DNA of 64,000 nucleotides from positions 62,001-126,000 of the forward strand of contig NZ_QNRO01000002.1 of NCBI RefSeq assembly GCF_003315345.1. Direction: 5' to 3'. Positions 53,203 to 60,991 of the stretch are shown here, piece by piece. Under the pieces are notes generated by a model, which saw only the letters and a list, made by a program, of their open reading frames with translations, made no database searches and was not told where the DNA came from. Within the stretch, counting starts at the first letter, position 1. Each line of letters opens with the position of its first letter. The translations under genes were made by a program, and so were the position numbers. This DNA comes from Marinobacter pelagius. GTDB taxonomy: Bacteria; Pseudomonadota; Gammaproteobacteria; Pseudomonadales; Oleiphilaceae.

Positions 53203-56200
53203 TCAGTGGCCTGTTGCCGGTTTGCCGGCTTCGGGCTCTTCACCATATTCATCGGCGGCCGAACCGTGATGATCCCGCGCCAGCAGTATGTAGAAAGCCG
53301 GCAGCACGAAGATGGTGAACAGGGTGCCGATACCAAGACCGGCACTGATGGTCAGCCCGATGGCGAAACGGCTCTGCGCGCCGGGGCCGACGGCAATCAG
53401 CAGCGGAACCATGGCGAAGATCAGGGCCAGAGAGGTCATTATGATTGGCCGCAGACGGATGGCTGCCGCCTCAATGACCGCCTGAACCTTGTCCAGGCCG
53501 CGCTCCTTCTGCAACAGGTTGGCGAACTCCACGATCAGGATGCCGTTTTTGGACACCACCCCGATCAGGGTGATCAGCCCCACCTGGGTGTAAATGTTCA
53601 TGGTGGCGAAGCCCAGTACGATGAAGGCCATGGCGCCGGCAACGGACATGGGCACGGATACCAGGATGATGAACGGATCACGCCAGCTCTCGAATTGCGC
53701 TGCCAGTACCAGGTAGATCACCAACAGTGACAGGAAGAAGGTGACCATCAGGGCGCTGCCCTGGGTCGCCAACTGGCGCGTCTGGCCGGTATAGTCGTAG
53801 CTGAATCCTTGCGGGAAAACATTCTCTGCAGTCTGTTCCATGAACGTCATGGCATCGCCCAGGGCCACGCCCGGCATCACCACTCCTTGCAGGGTCAGCG
53901 AGTTCAGCTGATTGAACTGGGTCCGGTTGGACGGCTCGACATCATGGCTGAAGCTCACCAAGCCCCCCAGGGGCACCAGCTCGCCGGTGTCGGTCCGGAT
54001 GTGGTAATCGTTCAGGGCCTGCTCATCCAGCCGGAACTGCTGGTCGACCTGGGGAATGACCTGGTAGGAACGGCCTTCCATGCTGAACCGGTTGATGTAT
54101 CCGCCGCCCAGCATGCTCGAAAGCGCCTGGCCTACGTCCTGCATGGATAGCCCCAGGTCGGCAACCCGGTCACGGTCAACATTGATGCGGGTGATCGGCC
54201 GGTCAAAGTTGATGGACTTTTGCAGGAACATGAAGTTGCCACTGGCCATGGCCTTGCCGAGCAGCTCATCCGCCACCTGGTCCAGCTGCTCGTAGCTGCT
54301 GCCGGTGGTGATCACGAACTGGAACGGTAGGCCACCACCGGAGCCCGGCAGGGATGGGCGGGGGAAGACCGCAGTCTGCAGGCCGGTCACTTTCTTCAGC
54401 TCCGCGTTGAGCATGGGCTGGACTTCGAACTGGGTGACTTCGCGCTCGCTCCAGGGTTTCATCTTGAACCCGCCGAACACCGCGTTGGGACTGGTGATGC
54501 CGAGAATCATGAAATCCTCGTTATAGCCCGGGACGGTGGTCATCCGGTTCTGGACTTCCTCGCCATGCTCGCGCAGATAGTCCAGAGTCGCGGTCTGGGG
54601 GCCCAGACCCTGGTAGAACAGGATGCCCTGGTCTTCGGTGGGCGCGAGCTCGTTCTGGCTCATCGTCACCATGAAGTAGATGGAGCCCAGTACCACCACC
54701 GCAAAGAATACCACCACCGATTTGGTCTGCATCAGTGATGCCAAAGCGGACTTGTAGCCATTTGACAGGCCGTTGAAGGTTTTCTCGACCAGGACCTCGA
54801 GCCGGCCGGGGTTGCCGTGAGCTTTGAGGACCTTGCCGGAAAGCATCGGTGACAGCGTCAGCGCCACAATGCCCGAGATCACGACGGTGCCGGCGAGGGT
54901 AAAGGCAAATTCGGTGAACAGCGAGCCCACCAGACCGCCCATGAAACCGATGGGCGCGTACACCGCCACCAGGGTGGTGGTCATGGCGATGATCGGCACA
55001 GCCATTTCCCGGGCACCGTTGATGGCGGCATCAAAACGGGATTCGCCTTGTTCGATGTGCCGGTGCACGTTTTCAACCATGATGATGGCGTCATCCACAA
55101 CCAGGCCGATAGCCAGCACCATGGACAGCAAGGTCAGCAGGTTCAGGGAGAACCCGAACATGAGCATGATGAAGGCACCGCCGATCAGGGACAGGGGCAC
55201 CGCCACCGAGGGCACCACCGAGGCGCGGATCGAGCCCAGGCACAGGAACACCACCACCAGTACGATGACCAGTGCTTCGAGCAAAGTTTTGATGACTTCG
55301 TTGATGGAGTCTTCAATAAAGTCGGAGGCGTCATAGGCGAGCCGGACATTCAGGCCCGATGGCAGCTGGCTTTCTATATCCGGAAGCGTGTCCTTGACCA
55401 GACCGGCCACTGTCAGCGGGTTGGCTCCGGGCGCCAGTTCAATCGCAACGTAGGTGGCGGGCTGGCCCTTGTACAGCGCCAGCTCATCATAGGTTTGCGA
55501 ACCCAGTTCCACGCGCGCGATGTCCTGGAGCCGGATCTGCGTGCCGTCCCGGGTTTTCACCACCAGGTTTCGGAACTGGTCGGGGTCGGCCACATCGGTA
55601 TCGCTGGTCATGGCGATTTCAACATACTGACCCTTGGTGTTGCCCACCGCAGCCTGGTAGTTGTTGGCCCGGAGCTTGGCAACCACTTCGGTCGGTGTCA
55701 TGTCGACCGCGGCCAGGCGCTCCGGGTCCAGCCACACCCTCAGCGCAAACTTGCGGCCGAACAGGCGGGCCTTGCCGACACCGGAGAGTGCCTGCAGCTT
55801 GGGTTGTACCACCCGGGTCAGGTAATCGGTGATCTGTGGTACCGCCAGTTCGGTGCTGTAGAAGGCGATATACATCAGCGCCGTGGAGTCACCGGTGGTG
55901 GAGGTGATCACCGGGTCCTGGGCTTCGGCCGGCAGCACGTTGCGCTGACTGGCCACTTTGGCCTGGATTTCCGCCAGGGCGGCATTGGCGTCGTAGTTCA
56001 GCTCCATCTTGGCCTGGATGGTGGACACGCCCTGGGAGCTGGTGGAGGTCAGGTAATCGATACCGCTCGCTTCGGCTATGGCCTGCTGCAGCGGCGTGGT
56101 GATGAAGCCCTTGATCAGGTCGGAGCTGGCCCCCGGGTAGGCGGTGGTGACCGTTACCGTTGTGCTCTCAAGTTCCGGATACTGCCGGATCTCCATCTCC

Positions 56201-56289
56201 ATGGCGGCCCGGGCCCCGAGCAGCAGGATCAGGAGGCTGACCACCGTCGCCAGTACCGGACGGTGGATGAATATGTCGGTAAATCGCAT
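53203..56289 (-). CDS. RND efflux pump inner-membrane transporter (HAE-1)
   Basis: A 1028-residue RND transporter with 12 predicted membrane segments and two large periplasmic loops. GLVVDDAIIMVENVHRHIE holds the paired Asp of the proton relay in TM4. Typical MexB/AcrB-family stretches are TDIFIHRPVLATVVSLLI, VTTAYPGASSDLI, QNELAPTEDQG and VGVVSKNG-type IGVVSKNGILIVEFAN. It exports lipophilic drugs or metabolites through a tripartite complex. The start overlaps the adaptor stop by one base (TAATG). No outer-membrane factor gene is adjacent. Confidence 0.93.
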   Translation of the reverse strand: MRFTDIFIHRPVLATVVSLLILLLGARAAMEMEIRQYPELESTTVTVTTAYPGASSDLIKGFITTPLQQAIAEASGIDYLTSTSSQGVSTIQAKMELNYDANAALAEIQAKVASQRNVLPAEAQDPVITSTTGDSTALMYIAFYSTELAVPQITDYLTRVVQPKLQALSGVGKARLFGRKFALRVWLDPERLAAVDMTPTEVVAKLRANNYQAAVGNTKGQYVEIAMTSDTDVADPDQFRNLVVKTRDGTQIRLQDIARVELGSQTYDELALYKGQPATYVAIELAPGANPLTVAGLVKDTLPDIESQLPSGLNVRLAYDASDFIEDSINEVIKTLLEALVIVLVVVFLCLGSIRASVVPSVAVPLSLIGGAFIMLMFGFSLNLLTLLSMVLAIGLVVDDAIIMVENVHRHIEQGESRFDAAINGAREMAVPIIAMTTTLVAVYAPIGFMGGLVGSLFTEFAFTLAGTVVISGIVALTLSPMLSGKVLKAHGNPGRLEVLVEKTFNGLSNGYKSALASLMQTKSVVVFFAVVVLGSIYFMVTMSQNELAPTEDQGILFYQGLGPQTATLDYLREHGEEVQNRMTTVPGYNEDFMILGITSPNAVFGGFKMKPWSEREVTQFEVQPMLNAELKKVTGLQTAVFPRPSLPGSGGGLPFQFVITTGSSYEQLDQVADELLGKAMASGNFMFLQKSINFDRPITRINVDRDRVADLGLSMQDVGQALSSMLGGGYINRFSMEGRSYQVIPQVDQQFRLDEQALNDYHIRTDTGELVPLGGLVSFSHDVEPSNRTQFNQLNSLTLQGVVMPGVALGDAMTFMEQTAENVFPQGFSYDYTGQTRQLATQGSALMVTFFLSLLVIYLVLAAQFESWRDPFIILVSVPMSVAGAMAFIVLGFATMNIYTQVGLITLIGVVSKNGILIVEFANLLQKERGLDKVQAVIEAAAIRLRPIIMTSLALIFAMVPLLIAVGPGAQSRFAIGLTISAGLGIGTLFTIFVLPAFYILLARDHHGSAADEYGEEPEAGKPATGH

Positions 56290-57392
56290 TATTCAGACGC
56301 CTCCTGATTTTGGTCGGAGCCTTCCTGGATTTCGACTTTCTGCCCGGCCCGCAGTCTCAGCAGGGCCTTGGACACCACGGTCTCACCGGCTTCGAGGCCG
56401 GAAAGAATGGCCACCCGGCCGTCACGGGTCTGGCCGGTGGTGACCGTACGACGTTCCACGATCAGCTTGCCATCGCCATTTTCGGTCACAACAAATACGA
56501 AGTCCCCATAAGTGTTATAGGAAATAGCGGTGCGGGGAATGGTGACCACCTCTTTGTCTTCCGGTTGCAGTGTCATCACCGACGCGAACATCCCGGGGCG
56601 CAACAGGTTGTCGGGATTGCTGATTGTGGCCCGGACCCGAACGGTTCGGGTTTCCGGGTTGACCGAGGTGTTGATGGCACTGATCTCGCCCTCGAACCGA
56701 CCCTGGGGCACGGCCGCGACTGTGACCTCCACTGGATGGCCGGTGTCAATATCGGCGAGGTTTTTCTCCGAAAGGGTGTAATCGGCGTAGATCGGGTCAA
56801 GCATGTTGATCTCGACGATGGGTGTGCCGGTGGCGATATACTCACCCTGGTCAACCATGCGGATGCCCACCGTGCCGTCAAACGGTGCCCGGATAATCTT
56901 CTTGTTGAGCTGAGCCTCGGCCTCGTTTACCCGCGCACGGGCGGCATCGTAGTTGGCTTTGGCCTGGTCATACTGGGACTGTGATACGGCCCGCCTGGGA
57001 AGCAGGTCAGACACCCGCTGGAACTCCTGGGCGGCAAGCTGGGCCTCGGCTCGCCGTGTGCGCAGGGCCGCTTCGTCGATTTCTGCATTCAGGCGGATAA
57101 GAACATCGCCCTTCTGGACAGTGTCGCCGGACTCGAAGTTGATACTTTCAATGACGCCGGGCACCTCGTTGGCAACCGCGATGCCATTGACGGCTTCAAT
57201 ACTGCCGACGGCCTTCAGAGATGGTGTCCACTGTTCGGTGCGCGCATCGGTGGCGGAGATCTTTGCCGGCGGTTGCGGCTGGGACATTTGCTCCTTCATT
57301 TGGCCGAACTGGTAGAACTTGTAGCCAAAGATGCCACCAAGGACGACGCCAAGAAAAATAATGACAATGATGAAGCGGGAAGCAGTGCGCAT
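56289..57392 (-). CDS. RND efflux pump periplasmic adaptor (membrane fusion protein)
   Basis: A 367-residue adaptor with one N-terminal hydrophobic anchor (about 7-25). VGSIEAVNGIAVANEVPGVIESINFESGDTVQKGDVL is the barrel/lipoyl half; RRAEAQLAAQEFQRVSDLLPRRAVSQSQYDQAKANYDAARARVNEAEAQL the hairpin; KKIIRAPFDGTVGIRMVDQGEYI the second lipoyl half. It joins the RND transporter to an outer-membrane channel. It is first in the two-gene operon. A perfect 8 bp inverted repeat stands 30 bp upstream. Confidence 0.93.
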   Translation of the reverse strand: MRTASRFIIVIIFLGVVLGGIFGYKFYQFGQMKEQMSQPQPPAKISATDARTEQWTPSLKAVGSIEAVNGIAVANEVPGVIESINFESGDTVQKGDVLIRLNAEIDEAALRTRRAEAQLAAQEFQRVSDLLPRRAVSQSQYDQAKANYDAARARVNEAEAQLNKKIIRAPFDGTVGIRMVDQGEYIATGTPIVEINMLDPIYADYTLSEKNLADIDTGHPVEVTVAAVPQGRFEGEISAINTSVNPETRTVRVRATISNPDNLLRPGMFASVMTLQPEDKEVVTIPRTAISYNTYGDFVFVVTENGDGKLIVERRTVTTGQTRDGRVAILSGLEAGETVVSKALLRLRAGQKVEIQEGSDQNQEASE

Positions 57393-58170: not shown

Positions 58171-58968
58171 TCAGGGCACAATCTCTACCTTGACCTCCAC
58201 GCTGCGGCTGCCGGAGCGGTTGCTCTCCACCTGGTAGGCGATGCCACTGTCACTTCGGGTGCCGCTCCGGACTACGCTGCCCAGAGAAACCCATTGCCCG
58301 GGCTCCACCCGCCGGATCGTCAGCAGCGCTTCCGTCTCATAGCCCTGGATCTTGGCCGGATCCTCCTCGAACGAGACAATATTCAGTTCCACCGCCTGGC
58401 TCGAAATAACCTGAGCGCTGACCAGAAAACCGCTCCGGGTCTCCACCTGCTCGAGAAATGCCGCCGGATTCCGGCCTCCACGAATGGCGATGGGCAGGGT
58501 GCGAATCTGGCCGGAGGTGATGTGGGCGGTCTGGCCATCCTGAACCAGCAGGGTCCGCTGCTGGTTGCTACCGGTGCTGGTGGTCTTGCGCTCAACGGTC
58601 ACAGCGACGTTCCCGTCCCGGGCTGAGACGCCCGCCCCCGAGCGTTCGCCACCGACTTCTTCACGGATCCTCACTGTGATCCGAAGCTGGGCGGGCGCTA
58701 CGTCCAGTGACTCCACCAGAGTGCCGATCTCATCCAGCAAATGGGGCTCGCCCCGCACCATCAGCTGCTGTCCCCGGGCAGTCACCGTAACCGGGGCATT
58801 GGCATACAGGTCCCGGATCTGGGCGGCCACGTCTTCAGCGGAGCGGGCATCCAGCTGGTAACTGCGGGTCTCGGTCTGGGCATGGGCAGACACGGAAGTG
58901 AGCCAGATGGGCACGACCATGACCAACAGGACCAGTAAACGGCTCAGGCTGACGTGGAACGAGGGCAT
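58171..58968 (-). CDS. Secretin-like periplasmic protein, truncated architecture
   Basis: A 265-residue exported protein; signal peptide ends near AHA (about residue 31). The start of the mature part (YQLDARSAEDVAAQIRDLYA, then PVTVTARGQQLMVRGEPHLLDEIGTLVESLD) resembles secretin N-domains. Later RTLLVQDGQTAHITSGQ resembles the dGqta stretch of the secretin core, but the C-terminal barrel is too short for a channel. GGAG precedes the chosen ATG; the frame is open to 59094. A stand-alone secretin-N-like protein is inferred. Confidence 0.75.
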   Translation of the reverse strand: MPSFHVSLSRLLVLLVMVVPIWLTSVSAHAQTETRSYQLDARSAEDVAAQIRDLYANAPVTVTARGQQLMVRGEPHLLDEIGTLVESLDVAPAQLRITVRIREEVGGERSGAGVSARDGNVAVTVERKTTSTGSNQQRTLLVQDGQTAHITSGQIRTLPIAIRGGRNPAAFLEQVETRSGFLVSAQVISSQAVELNIVSFEEDPAKIQGYETEALLTIRRVEPGQWVSLGSVVRSGTRSDSGIAYQVESNRSGSRSVEVKVEIVP

Positions 58969-59112
58969 ATGCACTCCGCAAAGACAGGGTAAACGGAAAA
59001 ACTTTGGCCTCCGGGTTGCCAAGGCGGAAAGCGGAGGTATATATTGAAGAGCATGAAGACCACAAACGCGACCTGTCAATTGAATGTTCTGCAAGCTTTC
59101 GGGGTAAAACCG

Positions 59113-59190
59113 ATGGCTGCGGTCGCTGCCGTGTTTTTTTGGTGGTTTGGTTATGGCTTTTATTTTAGCCAGAACCCGGGCCGCCTATAG
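59113..59190 (+). CDS. Aromatic leader peptide (attenuator) of the DAHP synthase gene
   Basis: A 25-codon reading frame, MAAVAAVFFWWFGYGFYFSQNPGRL ending in TAG (shown here only as its key part FFWWFGYGFYF). Nine of its 25 residues are Phe, Trp or Tyr, with eight of them within the twelve codons 8-18 region. It is placed upstream of a terminator and the DAHP synthase gene, the plan of pheL-type leader peptides. Ribosome stalling when aromatic tRNAs are scarce would favour readthrough. Ribosome-binding site is weak (GGGG). Confidence 0.75.
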   Translation: MAAVAAVFFWWFGYGFYFSQNPGRL

Positions 59191-59217
59191 GATTTTGATC
59201 CGACGAATTACGAGGAA

Positions 59218-59244
59218 GGCAGCCCGGCAGTAACCCAGGCTGCC
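59218..59244 (+). promoter_or_regulatory. Leader hairpin between leader peptide and attenuator
   Basis: GGCAGCC pairs with GGCTGCC across a 13 nt loop. It lies between the leader peptide stop and the attenuator terminator. Within it CCCAGGCT (59234-59241) could instead pair with AGCTGGG (59277-59283) of the terminator's 3' side, with one bulged base, a possible antiterminator. Confidence 0.5.
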
Positions 59245-59254
59245 ACCGGACTCG

Positions 59255-59291
59255 AAAAAGCCCCGACTGGTAGCCCAGCTGGGGCTTTTTT
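59255..59291 (+). terminator. Attenuator terminator before the DAHP synthase gene
   Basis: AAAAAGCCCC and GGGGCTTTTTT form the base of a stem in which ACTGG and CCCAG pair inside, followed by six T. It ends 31 bp before the DAHP synthase ATG, so it can only be a regulated terminator for that gene, or the terminator of something upstream on the plus strand; only the leader peptide is there. Confidence 0.85.
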
Positions 59292-59322
59292 GATTCTGAC
59301 CAAGGGAAACGGGAACACCGCT

Positions 59323-60375
59323 ATGAACATGCCACTGAAAGCCGATGCGCTGAACGATGCTGTTGCGGCAGCAGACAGCCACCGACAGGAAACCGCCCTG
59401 CCATCACCGGAACAACTGCGCCGGGAATTTCCTGCAGCACCGGATCTGTTGGCTCAGGTGCAGGGCTATCGACAGGCAATCCGGAATATCCTGCAGGGCA
59501 GGGATGACCGGACCCTGATCGTGATGGGACCGTGTTCCATTCACGATGAGCGGGCCGCACTGGATTACGGTCGCCGCCTGAAGCAGCTGGCCGATGATGT
59601 CAGTGACCGCTTCCTGATCGTGATGCGGGCATACCTGGAGAAACCCCGGACCACTGTGGGCTGGAAAGGTCTGCTGTACGATCCGGAGCGGAACGGGCAG
59701 GGGGACCTCCAGCAGGGGCTGGTACGTTCCCGCCAGCTTCTGCTGGAACTGGCCGGGCTCGGGTTGCCCCTGGCCACCGAGGCCCTCAGCCCGTTCGCCA
59801 TGGATTATCTCGGTGATCTGGTCAGCTGGAGCGCTATCGGGGCTCGCACCACCGAATCCCAGATCCACCGGGAAATGGTGAGCGGTCTGCCCATGCCGGT
59901 CGGTTTCAAGAACGGCACTGACGGCGGGATCGCGGTCGCTACCAATGCCATGAAATCTGCGGCCCATCCGCACCATCACCTGGGCGTGTCCGCCACCGGG
60001 GCGCCGGTGATGATCTCGACCCGGGGTAACCCGGATACCCATCTGGTGCTCCGCGGCGGCCGGGGAATGACCAACTACGATGCGGACAGCATCGCCGCTG
60101 CTGTGGTAGGACTGGAGCAGGCGGCTCTGTCCACTGCCGTCATGGTGGACTGCAGCCACGACAACGCCTGCAAACAGGCGGAGCGCCAGATCGATATTGC
60201 CCGGGAAGTCCTGGCCCAGAAGCGGGCCGGTAACACCCATATCCGTGGACTGATGCTGGAAAGCTTCCTGGAACCGGGGCGCCAGGATGATGGTTGCGAG
60301 CTGCTCTATGGCTGCTCGATCACCGATCCGTGCCTGGGCTGGGAGCAGACAGAGGCTCTGATTCGCTCACTGTAG
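59323..60375 (+). CDS. aroG: 3-deoxy-7-phosphoheptulonate (DAHP) synthase, class I
   Basis: A 350-residue enzyme joining erythrose-4-phosphate and phosphoenolpyruvate, the first step of the shikimate pathway. Motifs are VMGPCSIHDERAALDYGRRL, MRAYLEKPRTTVGWKGL, GARTTESQIHREMVSGL, GFKNGTDGG, RGGRGMTNYD and VDCSHDNA. Which aromatic isozyme this is (Phe-, Tyr- or Trp-type) is not clear from sequence; the gene symbol is provisional. A Phe/Trp/Tyr-rich leader and terminator precede it. The 3' end overlaps the convergent lysE-type gene by 56 bp. Confidence 0.93.
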   Translation: MNMPLKADALNDAVAAADSHRQETALPSPEQLRREFPAAPDLLAQVQGYRQAIRNILQGRDDRTLIVMGPCSIHDERAALDYGRRLKQLADDVSDRFLIVMRAYLEKPRTTVGWKGLLYDPERNGQGDLQQGLVRSRQLLLELAGLGLPLATEALSPFAMDYLGDLVSWSAIGARTTESQIHREMVSGLPMPVGFKNGTDGGIAVATNAMKSAAHPHHHLGVSATGAPVMISTRGNPDTHLVLRGGRGMTNYDADSIAAAVVGLEQAALSTAVMVDCSHDNACKQAERQIDIAREVLAQKRAGNTHIRGLMLESFLEPGRQDDGCELLYGCSITDPCLGWEQTEALIRSL

Positions 60376-60991
60376 ACAGCAGCAGTTGCGCAGCCAGGAC
60401 CAGTAACACTCCACCCATGATCCGGTCCAGCCAGTGGCCAAAGCGATTGAAGGCCTGGCGGACCCGGGGCAGGGTGAAGAACACCGCCACCAGGGCAAAC
60501 CAGGCGCCGGTGGCCACCGCCATGTAGATGCCATACCCCGCCTGCACCGCCAGGGGCGTGCCGGGGCTGATCACCACCGAGAACAGGGCCACGAAGAACA
60601 GTGTTGCCTTGGGATTGAGAGCATTGGTGAGAAAGCCGAGCCGCAACGCAGCGAAGGCTGACTGTGCCGGAGCGTTCCCGGTCTCCACATGAATACTGCC
60701 GGCCCTGGCCCGGAGGCACTGCAGGGCAATCCATGCCAGGTACAGGGCCCCGACCACTTTCAACACGCTGAACAGCATCACCGACTGTTTGATCAGCAGA
60801 CCAATGCCCAGCAGGGAATAGGTCACGTGCACCAGAATGCCGGCGCCCACCCCGACGGCACTCAGTAACGCATTCCTCCGGCTCTGGCACAGGGCCTGCC
60901 TGAGCATCACGGCAAAATCCGGCCCGGGGCTGACCACAGCCAGCAGATGAGCCACGACAATGGTCAGGAATTCTGGCCAGTACTGAACCAT
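60320..60991 (-). CDS. LysE/RhtB family amino acid exporter
   Basis: A 223-residue membrane protein with about six hydrophobic segments. LLAVVSPGPDFAVMLRQAL is the family signature near the N-terminus, and GFLTNALNPKATLFFVALFSVVIS is the second. Members export amino acids or homoserine lactones. Position next to an aromatic-pathway gene is suggestive only: the genes converge and overlap by 56 bp, an unusually long convergent overlap. Confidence 0.9.
   Translation of the reverse strand: MVQYWPEFLTIVVAHLLAVVSPGPDFAVMLRQALCQSRRNALLSAVGVGAGILVHVTYSLLGIGLLIKQSVMLFSVLKVVGALYLAWIALQCLRARAGSIHVETGNAPAQSAFAALRLGFLTNALNPKATLFFVALFSVVISPGTPLAVQAGYGIYMAVATGAWFALVAVFFTLPRVRQAFNRFGHWLDRIMGGVLLVLAAQLLLSTVSESEPLSAPSPGTDR

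Follow-up and report, generated by a model that had tools for sequence, protein, structure and literature searches.

The pheL, trpL, hisL and ilvL attenuators of Escherichia coli control other genes by the same logic as the element considered here; hisL likewise has a six-segment layout, A to F, and several end products are read by ilvL. Entry into the shikimate pathway is gated by DAHP synthase (3-deoxy-7-phosphoheptulonate synthase), a textbook case of repressor control; in E. coli the DAHP synthases are under TyrR and TrpR (PMC11802643). Precedents for attenuation of this enzyme nonetheless exist. In Corynebacterium glutamicum, ribosome stalling at aroR, the leader of aroF, raises transcription (Neshat et al. 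2014, as summarized in PMC11802643 and PMC4046766); aroR encodes Phe-Tyr-Phe and, as recounted in PMC11802643, Phe limitation matters and Tyr supply is without effect. The motif uORFC-13-1, reported only from Acholeplasma and unassigned sequences, comprises an upstream open reading frame (ORF) with at least one Phe codon (PMC8632094). Here, we analysed a window of 64,000 nucleotides from Marinobacter pelagius (assembly GCF_003315345.1, contig NZ_QNRO01000002.1, positions 62,001 to 126,000), in which one of the two DAHP synthase genes of the genome is preceded by what is very probably a ribosome-mediated transcription attenuator of the trp/his kind. A preliminary description of the locus had called attenuation of a DAHP synthase unusual; given aroR-aroF and uORFC-13-1 the kind is already known, and what looks new is this member, its reading of three amino acids and the identification of the Rfam family P15 as such an element. 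The gene, its leader and the aromatic codons are:

59323..60375, plus strand: DAHP synthase, the regulated gene (NCBIfam PRK12755 and aroFGH; Pfam DAHP_synth_1)
59053..59190, plus strand: leader peptide gene, 45 codons and TAG, MKTTNATCQLNVLQAFGVKPMAAVAAVFFWWFGYGFYFSQNPGRL; probably leaderless (ATG conservation, pN/pS, promoter spacing)
59134..59166, plus strand: regulatory codons F28 F29 W30 W31 F32 G Y34 G F36 Y37 F38 (codon conservation)

The aromatic frame at 59113-59190 noticed earlier (translation MAAVAAVFFWWFGYGFYFSQNPGRL*) is indeed present, and its run FFWWFGYGFYF holds five Phe, two Trp and two Tyr codons within 11. Among 75 distinct aligned leaders of equal length, W30, F36 and Y37 are kept in all 75, W31 and F38 in 74 and Y34 in 72. 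The ratio of non-synonymous to synonymous variation (pN/pS) in the 45-codon frame is 0.43; the other two frames give 1.05 and 0.69. As in C. glutamicum, an aromatic-codon leader peptide lies ahead of DAHP synthase; aroR differs in having Phe-Tyr-Phe alone, in belonging to another phylum and, by its description, in being an unrelated leader. Like uORFC-13-1, which precedes aroF, the element combines a small upstream frame containing Phe codons with a terminator, but no Trp or Tyr run has been described for that motif.

The leader had been taken to be a 25-codon frame opening at 59113. This ATG turned out to be internal: Met occupies the position (residue 21) in just 16 of the 75 leaders, whereas the ATG at 59053 is invariant (75/75), and the leader is therefore the 45-codon frame 59053-59190, its start lying 60 nt upstream of the coordinates given earlier. 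Codons 2-16, in the upstream part of the frame, are themselves under coding constraint (pN/pS 0.46). A GGGG run does stand at a fair distance from ATG 59113, in the CGGGG just upstream, and might be the ribosome-binding site of a true 25-codon leader; set against the poorly kept Met, the invariant upstream ATG and the constraint upstream of 59113, this seems highly improbable. The leader peptides match no Pfam or NCBIfam family.

Downstream of, and partly within, the leader gene, the RNA can be divided into six segments:

59141..59158, plus strand: segment A, on the aromatic codons; pairs with B if free of the ribosome
59167..59185, plus strand: segment B; pairs with A or, through 59176-59185, with C when a ribosome stalls on A
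59217..59227, plus strand: segment C; pairs with B (antitermination) or D (termination)
59235..59249, plus strand: segment D; pairs with C, or with E to give the antiterminator
59255..59291, plus strand: intrinsic terminator, segments E and F with the U run (duplex energy, covariation)

Both the hairpin at 59218-59244 (arms GGCAGCC...GGCTGCC) and the terminator at 59255-59291 (AAAAAGCCCCGACTGGTAGCCCAGCTGGGGCTTTTTT) were confirmed as first proposed. The five helices are mutually exclusive in a chain, the arrangement of a classical six-segment switch, with duplex energies of -24.3 (A:B), -21.1 (B:C), -19.2 (C:D), -18.8 (D:E) and -26.4 (E:F) kcal/mol. Over 113 sequences, the alignment cells able to pair amount to 95% for A:B, 85% for B:C, 98.6% for C:D, 98.9% for D:E and 98% for E:F, and the leader RNA folds 4 standard deviations better than dinucleotide shuffles (z = -4.03). 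Covariation in the termination helices exceeds that of shuffles, chiefly in the terminator, where 8 of 27 sequences have both sides of one pair changed, GC becoming AU in most cases, and 6 of the 27 replace CG by UA at a second pair.

To model the switch, a ribosome was placed on each codon in turn, with the polymerase immediately beyond E, and the RNA left free was folded. For the window, the modelled probability of D:E was 0.82-0.85 with the ribosomal aminoacyl site at W30 to Y37 (Trp, Trp, Phe, Tyr, Phe and Tyr codons), dropping to 0.06 at F38 and to 0.01 with the ribosome at the stop codon. For 116 relatives (footprint 13), the modelled mean was 0.67-0.80 for residues 29-37, intermediate for 39-40 and 0.18 at the stop codon, where none exceeded 0.5. 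Footprints of 11 and 15 gave the same outline, and most of the difference between stall and stop was lost when spacers were shuffled.

That the element works like a six-segment attenuator is thus a reading well supported by sequence and model. From the computed conservation of frame, codons, helices and terminator, together with the modelled switch point, we infer translation, stalling and readthrough of the following kind. RNA polymerase would start at or beside the leader ATG, with a ribosome trailing through the 45 codons. Should charged transfer RNA for Phe, Trp or Tyr be short, the ribosome would stall in FFWWFGYGFYF and cover segment A, so that B:C and then D:E could form, blocking the terminator and allowing the synthase to be made. 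Were all three plentiful, the ribosome would proceed to the stop codon and cover B, C:D and E:F would form, and transcription would end at about 59286-59291. The leader likely senses all three amino acids, and this single leader, reading all three end products, would apparently be an 'any one missing' switch.

Conserved leader peptides upstream of orthologues, which the preliminary description had suggested looking for, are present. We took 130 orthologue upstream regions from the Marinobacter family, 115 of them anchored on the common ATG; nearly all of the 130 have a leader of the same type, and leader plus terminator were recovered automatically in 116 Marinobacteraceae upstream regions. 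A terminator kept where the frame is not had been named as the outcome that would speak against the proposal, and both frame and terminator proved conserved. The best reading of the locus is a ribosome-mediated attenuator of DAHP synthase that reads codons for Phe, Trp and Tyr. Among the loci read in a class-wide sample, leaders occur at the four closest orthologues (own genome, G612, G181 and G198) and none was found at 26 more distant DAHP synthase homologues; the element tracks this DAHP synthase orthologue only. Beyond the Marinobacter family, every match above 41 bits to R1, a model built solely from leaders outside the P15 set and mostly from Marinobacter, lies at a DAHP synthase with an aromatic leader. 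Matches below about 41 bits, mostly away from DAHP synthase, were treated as terminator noise. In other lineages the leaders encode different peptides, again mixing F, W and Y.

In Pseudomonas orthologues, the leader ends FYFGYWFSHWRA and a terminator follows 40-65 nt past its stop. This stretch is Rfam RF00627, 'Pseudomonas sRNA P15', with matches of 105-130 bits:

L047 1620-1739; L049 1568-1687; L074 1553-1672; L076 1649-1767: RF00627 on the DAHP synthase attenuator (Rfam match)

RF00627 was found in 26 of 294 Pseudomonadales genomes searched, spanning 11 genera and three families, and each of the 26 matches precedes a DAHP synthase gene and contains an aromatic leader frame. In Pseudomonas, pN/pS is 0.33 for the leader frame and 2.7 and 0.64 for the others, and a comparison of coordinates shows R1 matches falling in register on 12 of the 26 P15 sites. 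P15 and the Marinobacter element have in common the place upstream of the orthologous DAHP synthase, the aromatic leader frame and the terminator after its stop; they differ in peptide order (FYFGYWF versus FFWWFGYGFYF in the window), in the Shine-Dalgarno-like GGAG of the Pseudomonas leaders and in the second small ORF that most of these have before the gene. A full-length alignment of P15 to window positions 59129-59285 scored 17.6 bits in a permissive search, far below the gathering score of 70 bits, so that the window is not a P15 member by that test, and Rfam found nothing at gathering score in the whole window. The one other permissive match, 'sar', was terminator-like and was set aside. 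Place, peptide and structure nevertheless strongly support P15 being this element in Pseudomonas.

Rfam types P15 as a gene, and its transcript was detected by Livny et al. (as cited in PMC2375449). The terminated RNA might accordingly be a trans-acting small RNA (sRNA), with attenuation secondary or absent, as with the terminated trpL leader of Sinorhizobium, which acts in trans (PMC7298713). Yet an sRNA requires neither a constrained frame nor a place upstream of DAHP synthase at all 26 sites, and we regard this alternative as very unlikely. Since every P15 match coincides with an aromatic leader of DAHP synthase, the most likely identity of P15 is the terminated product of the attenuator, as opposed to a free sRNA, and RF00627 is probably mislabelled as an sRNA gene. 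If so, a family once suspected of being a riboswitch would gain a function, as a terminated DAHP synthase leader, and sRNA annotations would be corrected across Pseudomonas. Our literature search found no paper linking P15 to DAHP synthase, although an earlier mention is possible, as a 2006 source and attenuator comparisons of 2001 and 2004 lay outside its coverage.

The second small ORF, between terminator and DAHP synthase, occurs at most Pseudomonas loci and in some related families. It follows the pattern MNYATYYRYD..AWRFS.LRSGQPAASDRS..GG (YYRYD...AWRF...LRSGQ), as at L047 (1801-1953), L049, L074, L076 and the Marinobacteraceae locus L035. It contains Tyr, Trp and Phe codons, with a pN/pS of 0.585 against 0.92 and 0.72 in the other frames, and is possibly a second, translational checkpoint.

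Several observations weigh against the proposed mechanism, or at least against parts of it. In the antiterminator 90% of cells pair, but its letters are nearly invariant and its covariation does not rise above that of shuffles; the antiterminator helices show little covariation because they are too conserved, and a compensating change was seen by eye in one distant relative, L040. The leader codons overlap segments A and B, which makes constraint on the protein hard to separate from constraint on the RNA. For a leader free of ribosomes, the model gives D:E a probability of 0.65, and basal termination without translation is therefore poorly predicted, while P15-type leaders show only a small difference in a simple three-state model. 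Nor does attenuation explain the silent-site conservation in one part of the leader:

59074..59088, plus strand: leader codons 8-12, TGTCAATTGAATGTT; nearly invariant, synonymous sites included

Finally, codon content is no proof of three-way sensing, since the Tyr codons of the corynebacterial aroR come without a Tyr effect (PMC11802643). It is therefore conceivable, if somewhat doubtful, that in practice the attenuator responds to a single amino acid (Phe or Trp), its other aromatic codons being kept by RNA pairing or chance. The corynebacterial precedent, in which Phe limitation alone matters, would fit this, as would the five Phe codons against two each for Trp and Tyr, and the position of segment A on the aromatic codons means that RNA pairing constrains them too. 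On the other hand, no fewer than 72 of the 75 leaders retain each of W30, W31, Y34 and Y37, the peptides of other lineages differ and still mix F, W and Y, and a modelled stall anywhere in codons 30-37 leads to antitermination, all of which counts against a single sensor.

The stretch of codons 8-12, with CTGTCAATT retained in other genera, includes the palindrome TCAATTGA, some 20-35 nt downstream of the predicted RNA start. The conserved RNA or DNA letters in the N-terminal half, unneeded for attenuation, could be taken to mean that a protein or small-molecule ligand binding the leader RNA mainly controls the terminator, the peptide being incidental, and a riboswitch was once suggested for P15. 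We consider this extremely unlikely, for the codon signature holds its position across all lineages as the flanking sequence varies, the helices agree with the modelled ribosome position and the window has no Rfam family at threshold. By analogy with rnTrpL and peTrpL of Sinorhizobium, an additional role in trans might fall to the terminated RNA (in Pseudomonas, P15) or to the leaderless peptide of 45 residues; this is unlikely, but would account for synonymous-site conservation in the N-terminal half, so far from the stall codons.

The leader gene is preceded by a promoter:

59016..59045, plus strand: sigma-70-type promoter, -35 TTGCCA at 59016-59021, -10 TATATT at 59040-59045, spacer 18 (scan and conservation)

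In the 75 aligned leaders, the T, T, G and final A of the -35 are invariant, as is the -10 save for one position, and the pair keeps a fixed distance from ATG 59053. The -10 ends 7 nt upstream of the ATG, which at the usual spacing would place the RNA start within 1-2 nt of it, so that translation probably proceeds from a leaderless RNA. Leaderless attenuator peptides have been described for the trpL of Sinorhizobium (PMC7298713) and for mycobacterial polycysteine small ORFs (Canestrari 2020, as cited in PMC13236596); in these, the leader peptide comes from an RNA beginning at its ATG, but amino acids and operons are different, and in Marinobacter the leaderless start is predicted from promoter position. 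A divergent gene at 58171-58968 encodes a product with a Secretin_N domain, so that the attenuator promoter sits in a common intergenic gap of less than 150 nt.

The regulated gene starts at 59323 (ATGAACATG), as first annotated, and its product scores 490 bits against PRK12755 and 431 bits against aroFGH, both above cut-off, beside the Pfam DAHP_synth_1 match. The genome has two genes close to this type, of which this is one, and the synthase is 94% identical to that of a Marinobacter metagenome-assembled genome, the nearest named relative found; no aromatic leader precedes the second DAHP synthase, its paralogue. Unlike E. coli with its repressor-controlled DAHP synthases, this genome has no detectable Trp repressor, which fits attenuation bearing part of the regulatory load; a TyrR/PhhR-like regulator may also be present, the HTH_50 matches being compatible with either case. 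A LysE-type exporter gene (60320-60991) is convergent with the DAHP synthase gene and overlaps its end. Further upstream, on the minus strand at 53203-57392, the translations read as a resistance-nodulation-division (RND)-type efflux pump and its membrane-fusion partner.
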